DNA from: an archaeon
GTDB lineage: Archaea > Thermoproteota > Nitrososphaeria > Nitrososphaerales > CADDZS01
DNA: 40,244 bases
Reading direction: 5' to 3'
Assembly: GCA_902812485.1 (NCBI GenBank)
Contig: CADDZS010000004.1
Span: 1-40,244, forward strand
The notes beneath the pieces are model-generated. The model was not told the DNA's origin. It ran no database searches and worked only from the letters and a program-made list of their open reading frames with translations. The number at the start of each line of letters is the position of its first letter. Position 1 is the first letter of the stretch. Of this stretch, positions 14,589-39,793 are shown in pieces. The translations under genes were made by a program, and so were the position numbers.

Positions 14589-15034
14589 CTGAGCAAAAAG
14601 AGGAAGAGGAAGAATAAGAAAGAGCTACCTGTAGTAGTAACAGCAGTAGCTAAGCTTACAGCGAAGACAAGAAAGTGAAGAAGCTGCGCAACATGACTGA
14701 CCTATTTGTTGCGCAGCCATTCACTATGTTTTTCGCCCCTTCTTGCCTCCCTCTTTCTCAATCGCCTAGATCCCTCGACTGGTCTAGCATCCTGTGGTTC
14801 TTTTTTTCCCTTCGCAAACCAGAGGAAATGTCAAAAAGATTGAAAGAAACAGGGTAAGTAAGGAAAAACAAGCATACAAGTGGCACCATCATTAGAAGCA
14901 AAGAACCGATTTTTGAGCAAACGCTCGAATAAAAAAATGCGTAGAGAAAGTGCGAAAGAGGGCAAAGTGACTTCTTGAAAGCTTACCCTATCCGCAAGGT
15001 AGCCAAAAGCAATGAGCCTTGAGGTACTTGCGTT
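14589..15034 (+). other. Gap between the two cdvB genes, partly open in frame with the first
   Basis: The first 87 bases (14589-14675) continue the cdvB frame past its TAA as a lysine/arginine-rich then valine-rich stretch, ending at TGA 14676-14678; it includes GTA/GCA triplet repeats (about 14631-14650). A run of seven T at 14801-14807 could terminate the first cdvB transcript. An A-rich AATAAAAAAA near 14929 is a weak promoter candidate for the second gene. No other gene seen. Confidence 0.4.
14798..14807 (+). terminator. T-run, possible terminator of first cdvB
   Basis: TTC followed by seven T residues, 210 bases past the cdvB stop. Archaeal RNA polymerase often terminates at T-runs without a hairpin; no hairpin is obvious here. 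Confidence 0.3.
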
Positions 15035-37712: not shown

Positions 37713-38546
37713 TCAGAGCATCATCAATAGCTTTGGAAAGATCAACACTCCGATCCCTAACGCGATGAAGCAAGATCCAAGCAAACCATTGAACAAGGGT
37801 GTGCCTTTCACCAAAATCTTTTCAAGCGCAATGGTCGCAGCCAGCGCGGCCATGACAGGGATGCTCATTGCTCCGACGGCGAGCATTACCAACATGAAAG
37901 CCCAGCAACAGCCAACGCAGTACATCCCATGTCTTAGACCCATTTTCATCGCACCAAGGGGACCGCTGGTGTAGTGCAGAGCAAAGAAGCCTATCGGTGA
38001 GACGCATTTTGAAAGGCAAGCCCTCTTAAGCGGTGTGAACTGGTAAACTCCTGCAAACGCAAGCAATGCGCTGGATGCTAGAATTGAAAATCGAGCAAAA
38101 CTTGGAAAGTTTCCAAAGGCTCCGACGAGTATTGATATCGCCAAAAAGAGCAGTATACCAAGTAGCGAATATACAATGAGATAACCACCCAAAAAGAGCG
38201 GTGTTCCGGTAGCTCTTGAAATACGCCCTGATGATTCTTGTTTAATCACGATCCTGTTGTAAAAGAGAACTATGGGGATCATAGCTGGGAACATCATAGC
38301 TATCATCCCAATAATCCAAACTGTTTCGAAGATCGTGATCGAAGTAAGGGAGGGAGAAGAAACTACAGAAACAACCCCAGAAAGCATGCCTGCGGACTCG
38401 GGTGGCGTCATCATCATGGTCAGAGGCATCAGGTAATATGTGGCGATCCATGCGACTATTGCCGAGCATACGAGTGAAAGCGAGATTATTAGGGCGAGTC
38501 TGTCTCGAACAAATATTGGACTTCCGGATTCCCTAGAAGATGTCAA
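37713..38546 (-). CDS. DUF2182 integral membrane protein
   Basis: 277-residue polytopic membrane protein with about seven hydrophobic segments. The family (DUF2182, putative metal-binding membrane protein) is recognised from GLRHGMYCVGCCWAFMLVMLAVGAMSIP (about 199-226), where the histidine and paired cysteines may bind a metal, and from MMFPAMIPIVLFY. TTG start. It follows the DUF1326 gene by 33 bases on the same strand, a pairing seen in several bacteria and soil archaea. Function unknown; a role in metal handling is inferred only from the conserved residues. Confidence 0.85.
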   Translation of the reverse strand: MTSSRESGSPIFVRDRLALIISLSLVCSAIVAWIATYYLMPLTMMMTPPESAGMLSGVVSVVSSPSLTSITIFETVWIIGMIAMMFPAMIPIVLFYNRIVIKQESSGRISRATGTPLFLGGYLIVYSLLGILLFLAISILVGAFGNFPSFARFSILASSALLAFAGVYQFTPLKRACLSKCVSPIGFFALHYTSGPLGAMKMGLRHGMYCVGCCWAFMLVMLAVGAMSIPVMAALAATIALEKILVKGTPLFNGLLGSCFIALGIGVLIFPKLLMML

Positions 38547-38579
38547 TTGTTTTTCACACGTTTTACCTGCCCAGTTGAG

Positions 38580-39194
38580 CTAGTTACCACCATGCTCGAC
38601 TGTAGCATAAAATGCTGTTTTGCCTGGCCATGCATATTTTAGCCCATCTGCAAAGACTGAGAAGACCTTGGTGGCAGTAACGTTCTCCTCACGCGTAAGA
38701 AGCCCGTCGGGAAGCAGTATCTTTGCTCGTACTTCCTTGCCTGTGACAGGATTCCTCATAGGTTGCAAGGCAACTCTAACTTGCTCTCCAACCACAACCT
38801 CTGATTCTGATGCATTTGATTTCCATTCGATCGGCACAAAGGATGTTTCGAGCCACTTGTCGATTGTAGGAGCAAAAATAGGCCATGGTTTCCCTCCGAG
38901 TTTACCTTTCAACATCCTTTCCATCAAGTCTCTTAATTTGGTTGAGGCCTTTTCATCGATGAATAATTTCGCAGTTCCACTCCCAAAATGCAGAGCTTTA
39001 GGCCAGCTTGCCATGTATGCAAATGATAATCCATCAAGCGAAAATCCGCCAAGATTTCCTTTCTTAACGTTCAAGAGCCAGCCCCCTTGGCAGAATCCCA
39101 GTGTTGGAGGCTGATTGAATGTGCAGGGACATCCCCAATCACAGCTGCAAGGAGTAATTATCTCGGCTTTGTAGCTCCACTTGGTTTGAGGCAT
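38580..39194 (-). CDS. DUF1326 domain protein
   Basis: 204-residue soluble protein of the DUF1326 family. The hallmark is the N-terminal cysteine cluster CSCDWGCPC (residues 16-24), likely binding a metal or forming a redox centre; then QGGWLLNVKKGNLGGFSLDGLSFAYM and the C-terminal GLKYAWPGKTAFYATVEHGG. ATG start. First gene of a two-gene unit with DUF2182. No signal peptide is visible. Precise function is unknown. Confidence 0.88.
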   Translation of the reverse strand: MPQTKWSYKAEIITPCSCDWGCPCTFNQPPTLGFCQGGWLLNVKKGNLGGFSLDGLSFAYMASWPKALHFGSGTAKLFIDEKASTKLRDLMERMLKGKLGGKPWPIFAPTIDKWLETSFVPIEWKSNASESEVVVGEQVRVALQPMRNPVTGKEVRAKILLPDGLLTREENVTATKVFSVFADGLKYAWPGKTAFYATVEHGGN

Positions 39195-39415
39195 GAAGAA
39201 AATTCAGGTCTTGAACATCGCGGGGAAACCGATACGAAAAGGTTTCGTTCAAAGAACGAGGAAGAGGACTGAATTCGTTGCTCGACCCCTGCGAGAAGCA
39301 GCTAGACTATAGATGGCAAGGCAAGTTCATGAAGCATTTTTCTCCTCATCTTGGTTACATAGTTGAGATCTTCTTCGTTTCAAGACTGCCTTTGTAACAA
39401 CTGGTGGGAAAAACA

Positions 39416-39465
39416 TTATATGACATACGTTATAATATTGAGCCAAGTCCACAAATGTCATATAA
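39416..39465 (+). promoter_or_regulatory. Promoter with perfect 11-bp inverted repeat reaching the start codon
   Basis: TTATATGACAT (39416-39426) is repeated inverted as ATGTCATATAA (39455-39465). Between the arms lies a TATA-like TTATAATAT (39430-39438). The second arm begins exactly at the ATG of the downstream gene. Arm centres are 39 bases apart, near four helical turns, so a dimeric regulator could bind both on one DNA face. Confidence 0.5.
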
Positions 39466-39793
39466 AGCTCCAGATTTGCCAGCCGAGAAAGTAACTCCAG
39501 AGCTAGTGAGGGACGAGCTCCTATCCTGCTTTGAAAGTGCCAACCGAGAATTTGCAAAGATCCTGAATCAACCCACGAGTGACGAAGCGCTCCGAGAACA
39601 AGTCAAGCAATTCGTTACCAGTGTCTTTGGAAAATGTGGCGTGAGCTTCGACAGTCCTTCCAAGGAAGGAATCATCCTTGCAATAAACGAGTGCAAGAGA
39701 AACGCTGAAGCAATGATGGGGCCAAAAGGATCAGAGATAATCAGACATCACTATCAAGAAATGATGAAACTTGTTGAAAAGCTTCCAGATTAG
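39455..39793 (+). CDS. Hypothetical small helical protein
   Basis: 112 residues, no recognised domain though it resembles conserved small archaeal proteins of unknown function. Mostly helical and charged: TPELVRDELLSCFESANREFAKIL, an EAL-type REQVKQFVTSVF segment, and a C-terminal HHYQEMMKLVEKL. Two cysteines in the first half and near KCGV. I chose the ATG at 39455 (MSYKAPDL) since the TATA-like site is 17-25 bases before it and gives an almost leaderless mRNA; an in-frame upstream TTG/ATG-type start at 39404 would place the TATA inside the gene. Plus strand; its stop faces the thermosome 3' end. Confidence 0.75.
   Translation: MSYKAPDLPAEKVTPELVRDELLSCFESANREFAKILNQPTSDEALREQVKQFVTSVFGKCGVSFDSPSKEGIILAINECKRNAEAMMGPKGSEIIRHHYQEMMKLVEKLPD

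Follow-up and report, generated by a model that had tools for sequence, protein, structure and literature searches.

Among the described systems closest to the locus reported here, IscR, RirA, and RisR are Fe-S-linked regulators of the Rrf2 family in bacteria, regulators of the DtxR/IdeR/MntR type control metal genes, and archaeal regulators of the ThiR type consist of an XRE-like helix-turn-helix (HTH) fused to ThiN. In cyanobacteria and mycobacteria, suf genes are reported to be repressed by SufR (PMC6034842). As reported, the IscR, RirA, and RisR systems resemble the putative archaeal circuit in placing Fe-S assembly or iron genes under a presumed cysteine-ligated sensor, and differ from it in HTH type, operator, and gene set. 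With SufR it shares the control of suf genes; our candidate regulator is an XRE-like protein of ~140 aa. The likeness to DtxR/IdeR/MntR lies in metal-gene control, and the difference in that their own genes lack the dyad described below. ThiR-type proteins have an N-terminal HTH similar to that of the candidate, but the ThiR-type matches found here are reading frames of roughly 300–415 aa, whereas the candidate is much shorter and ends in a short C-x2-H-x11-C-x2-C tail. The regulation of Fe-S cluster assembly in archaea seems little described; among the matches listed from the open-access literature, passages of PMC10746257 and PMC12584684 included, bacterial Fe-S regulators were present and no archaeal suf operator or regulator was found, and an earlier description of the archaeal circuit elsewhere is possible. 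An open-access search for COG2522 returned no literature match. Here, we describe a 14-bp dyad that is probably bound by a dimeric repressor co-regulating archaeal Fe-S, sulfur, and metal genes, with the XRE-like protein as the likely repressor. Taken together, the findings supply a precisely defined putative operator, the genes it accompanies, a candidate regulator bearing a possible sensor motif, and a cysteine protein, as yet nameless, that is linked to Fe-S metabolism, all of them accessible to experiments on short DNA fragments and purified protein.

The window analysed, a stretch of 40,244 nucleotides from an archaeon of the Nitrososphaerales (contig CADDZS010000004.1), contains an exact 11-bp inverted repeat that the original prediction had singled out as the best in the window, and as a means of repression by looping or of forming an mRNA 5' structure at the start of an orphan gene. 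Its arms, TTATATGACAT and ATGTCATATAA, lie where they had been placed, 28 nt apart and 100% complementary, and the first bases of the second arm are the ATG of a gene encoding a 112-aa protein (Table 1). As a unit, the repeat is mostly coincidence. Counting exact arms of at least 11 bp with loops of at most 60 nt, we found two such repeats in the window, whereas 40 simulations under a first-order Markov model yielded 0.58 on average (sd 0.77), which places the count at chance level; the other one, a GC-rich repeat at 14683–14717 with a 13-nt loop, matches it in arm length and has the shorter loop, so the first is not the best in the window. The check proposed was for recurrence upstream of orthologues and elsewhere in the genome; the 11-mer TTATATGACAT occurs in its own assembly at these two places only, and full pairing (11/11) of the start-codon 11-mer with the region upstream of it is seen in the window only, compared with 5–8/11 in 38 other promoters of the gene family and 5–10 in most shuffled upstream DNA. 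The second arm reads ATG TCA TAT AA, that is, codons 1–4 of the 112-aa gene. A functional repeat, whether acting through a protein that joins two operator halves across 39 bp or through a hairpin at the 5' end of the mRNA, would account for the exact arms and for the half-site-like ATGTCAT within the second arm; it is nonetheless most improbable, given the chance-level count and a second arm whose sequence is fixed by the codons for M-S-Y-K and is found in 0/38 other promoters. Looping repression through an operator that needs both arms conserved is left without support by that same absence, and an mRNA hairpin is unlikely since the first arm sits on the TATA-like element, upstream of the transcription start expected from archaeal promoter geometry, and would go untranscribed. 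The refutation test set in advance, absence in relatives combined with a chance count, thus removed the 11-bp repeat and uncovered the dyad.

Table 1 Coordinates of the features at the start of the 112-aa gene, in positions of the window.
Feature	Position	Strand	Remark
TATA-like box ATTATATGAC, sharing bases with the left half of the dyad	39415–39424	+	Relatives mostly have (T/G)TTATATAAC or a sequence close to it
First arm of the reported repeat, holding the left half-site of the dyad	39416–39426	+	Exact arm match
14-bp dyad ATGACATACGTTAT, putative operator, consensus ATRACRTAYGTYAT	39420–39433		Conserved in orthologue promoters
Second arm of the reported repeat, encoding M-S-Y-K, judged coincidental	39455–39465	+	Absent from 38 other promoters
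112-aa protein of an archaeal family without a name	39455–39793	+	Predicted three-helix protein

That the TATA box coincides with an inverted repeat of probable regulatory function is borne out, with a different pairing: not the two 11-mers 39 bp apart, but a compact dyad composed of ATGACAT from the first arm and the adjoining ACGTTAT. Lining up the promoters of the 112-aa family revealed a compact dyad, ATAACATATGTTAT or ATAACGTATGTCAT, on the TATA-like box, and the window's ATGACATACGTTAT is, base for base, the opposite strand of ATAACGTATGTCAT, a form present in six orthologue promoters (L024, L026, L029, L030, L033, and L039). The dyad is present at 13/14 or better in 23/39 promoters and at 14/14 in 19/39, leaving 16/39 in which it is wanting at 13/14. 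These 39 promoters exclude L017 (broken frame), L028 (masked upstream region), and the duplicates L023, L025, and L042 (of L003, L004, and L016, respectively), and include L018, whose gene copy is interrupted by a TGA, as well as the partial L045. Among the 16 lacking promoters, four (L034, L038, L040, and L044), from loci titled Euryarchaeota and Micrarchaeota, have ATAAC-N3-GTTAT, with a 3-base spacing, upstream of the 112-aa gene in place of the 14-bp dyad. With the 23 dyad-containing promoters in register at the dyad, the conserved stretch outside it takes in just the five bases on its 5' side (0.9–2.0 bits), the high conservation inside the dyad being partly a matter of choice, since these rows were picked for having it.

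Beyond the 112-aa gene, the dyad recurs at a small set of genes. The window's own assembly holds four exact copies of ATRACRTAYGTYAT against 0.05 expected, located before the 112-aa gene, sufB (58 bp), a ZIP metal transporter, and a rhodanese gene (23 bp). Allowing one mismatch brings no excess in this genome (six sites at 0–1 mismatch versus four reversed controls), where the two additional sites fall within reading frames. Across 121 genomes, there were 89 exact sites compared with 22 for the reversed pattern, with the difference concentrated in the window's family (f1, 14 versus 0) and a related family (f10, 46 versus 0); together these account for 60 sites and no reversed-pattern controls in 32 genomes, whereas the remaining 89 genomes have 29 exact sites versus 22 reversed. 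Labelled genes (sufB, sufC, ZIP/radical-SAM, rhodanese, 112-aa/PALP, and the XRE-like regulator) have their starts downstream of, or overlapped by, 14/14 sites in f1 and 44/46 in f10, a raw total of 58/60 that comes from related species that are not independent and was obtained with a consensus and label set fixed after the window and its relatives had been viewed, the labels being taken from the neighbours seen first. At these sites, the ZIP gene is often divergent with a radical-SAM gene, and the 112-aa gene with a cysteine-synthase-like PALP gene. The 59th site lies on the start of a FeS_assembly_P gene in f10, and no fitting gene was found at the last f10 site (L165, in genome G099). Family f16 contributes three sites, at sufC, at a rhodanese gene, and at a gene of DsrE type whose Pfam score falls short of the cut-off. 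Families f8 (5 versus 10 reversed) and f9 (2 versus 2) show no site excess, though regulator relatives are present there. Dyads also lie 12–16 bp before the gene of a small cysteine-rich protein in f4 and f13 (L076, L141, L142, and L143); at L076 this gene is divergent with a DHHA1-domain gene, and the proteins of L076 and L142 have no Pfam match. The literal dyad 14-mers occur in one Drosophila paper among the literature matches listed.

The candidate regulator combines an N-terminal XRE-like HTH with the C-terminal C-x2-H-x11-C-x2-C, a candidate metal or Fe-S site whose residues C108, H111, C123, and C126 are invariant in 24 aligned members. Scores against PF01381 (HTH_3, cut-off 23 bits) were 24.0 for the member in genome G023, 19.7 for a paralogue in f13, and 18.7 for L065, and the family profile picks up lambda-repressor-like, Cro, and HipB chains with E values of 0.001–0.014. 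Relatives occur in 117/121 genomes, in some of them only as longer ThiR-like proteins, and a structure model of the candidate has a pLDDT of 76.9 and is weak in the cysteine tail. The dyad is also present at promoters of these regulator genes. In f10, where 17 of 21 loci were counted (L097, L100, L102, and L103 were dropped for want of an anchor), it reaches at least 12/14 in 15/17 promoters, at least 13/14 in 11/17, and 14/14 in 6/17, compared with an average of about 9.2 and maxima of 11–13 in 100 shuffles of each promoter. It scores 13/14 in f4 (L113) and 12/14 in f16, and the f13 paralogue has tandem exact dyads before its gene; at L138–L140, these lie 21 bp apart, between the divergent XRE-like paralogue and an ORF of ~75–87 aa. 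Nine other promoters outside f10 split into four at 12/14, a score that some shuffles reach, and five at 9–10/14. The regulator promoters of f1 score 9–11/14, that of f6 scores 9/14 (L114) although f6 has a sufB site, and those of f8 (L169, 9/14) and f9 (L170, 8/14), whose recognition helix has asparagine, lack it. In f1, four of the five promoters read (L116–L119) have a distinct ATGCCGTTCGGCAT-type dyad, with ATGCC half-sites, after a TTAAATA element. In the window's own genome, which is about 94–94.5% complete, the regulator profile finds only a ThiR-like match, in a 369-aa frame, and no clear orthologue.

Given its overlap with the TATA-like element, the dyad might be regarded as an extended TATA/BRE variant of the core promoter and not as a regulator's site. 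We consider this very unlikely: the dyad is palindromic, it has only the four exact copies in its own assembly, and the 58/60 sites described above belong to a handful of gene families with related functions. Moreover, most XRE-like genes of f10 have it downstream of a separate TTAAATA-like element, and the f13 dyads occur in tandem.

Evolutionarily, the half-site covaries with one residue of the candidate, namely the x of the recognition-helix motif S-x-Y, which favors the XRE-like protein as the likely binder. Lineages with lysine at this position use ATGAC (16/28 half-sites in f1, 16/16 in the f13 paralogue contigs, and 5/6 in f16), whereas f10, with asparagine, uses ATAAC and has ATGAC in 2/92 half-sites; the lysine of f16 was expected from its sites before the protein was read and was then found, an expectation that had not been recorded beforehand. 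Another binder may instead serve the same Fe-S/metal regulon in the window's organism, for instance an Lrp/AsnC-type protein encoded beside the suf operon or one of the DtxR type. Its own genome (G000) has an AsnC-type gene adjoining the suf operon, with a similar ORF in G001, as well as a DtxR-type protein, and the short XRE-like protein with the cysteine tail was not found there. We nevertheless regard this as unlikely, if still worth weighing. The half-site changes with the recognition helix of the XRE-like protein, and the dyad stands at XRE-like genes in f10, f4, f16, and, for the paralogue, f13, but at 0/16 DtxR gene starts (best 11/14); DtxR-type proteins also occur in G015 and G016, where there is no exact site, and none was found in G005, a genome with three such sites. 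DtxR-type proteins score above the PF02742 cut-off in 9/10 tested genomes, the window's included, and were rejected as the obvious regulator on these two grounds, genes without the dyad and a presence that does not track it. Rrf2 proteins were rejected likewise, with 0/10 tested genomes above the PF02082 cut-off, again including the window's own; five of the ten gave weak matches below it, and the own genome none.

Functionally, we posit that a dimeric repressor, probably the XRE-like protein, would occupy the dyad and, given that in the 112-aa promoters the dyad lies on the TATA-like element, should block access of TBP/TFB to the TATA box. Its regulon would comprise SufB, SufC, the ZIP metal transporter, the rhodanese sulfurtransferase, and the 112-aa three-cysteine protein. 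Since the regulon serves the provision of Fe-S clusters, sulfur, and metal, and cysteine and histidine ligands are present in the candidate, a shortage of Fe-S clusters or metal could release the repressor and allow the genes to be transcribed. With the dyad at its own promoter in several related families, the XRE-like repressor would appear to control its own gene as well, and the same arrangement may be present in the window's organism. A broader reading, in which a small, autoregulated XRE-like sensor-repressor acting on ATRACRTAYGTYAT forms a hitherto undescribed circuit of archaeal Fe-S homeostasis, and in which the 112-aa protein would, if this is true, be a new Fe-S or sulfur-handling factor, is put forward more tentatively, as possible rather than probable.

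The 112-aa gene itself is not the orphan it had been taken for, with relatives in 16/121 genomes, its own included, and 26 loci in a second collection, at least three of which repeat genomes among the 121. The assembly titles of these loci include Thaumarchaeota, Bathyarchaeota, Euryarchaeota, Calditenuaceae, and Micrarchaeota, and the gene was not found in eight other searched genomes of the window's own family, which points to a patchy spread. An alignment of 33 members (A1, which, like the 24-row A2, was chosen from a larger set of fetched members) has C25, C61, C80, N83, E85, H99, Y100, and E102 invariant. Searches with the window's protein gave no Pfam match over the cut-off and no NCBIfam match, and the family's sequence profile found no convincing relative in the PDB (best E value 0.15). 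AlphaFold2 models it confidently as a three-helix protein (pLDDT 92.5), for which Foldseek returned nothing from the PDB at E ≤ 0.001 and VIA-align gave a top Z of 5.8, usual for helical bundles and spread over unrelated rows; a missing structural match of this kind shows neither a new nor an old fold. Decay of the family in certain lineages is possible: genome G061 has a second gene copy with an internal TGA (L018) and G085 a degenerate copy with two stops (L017). Next to the 112-aa gene in the window, and divergent from it, genes for PpoB2 (PF09948, 'Copper chaperone') and a DUF1326 protein lie together on the minus strand at 37713–39194.
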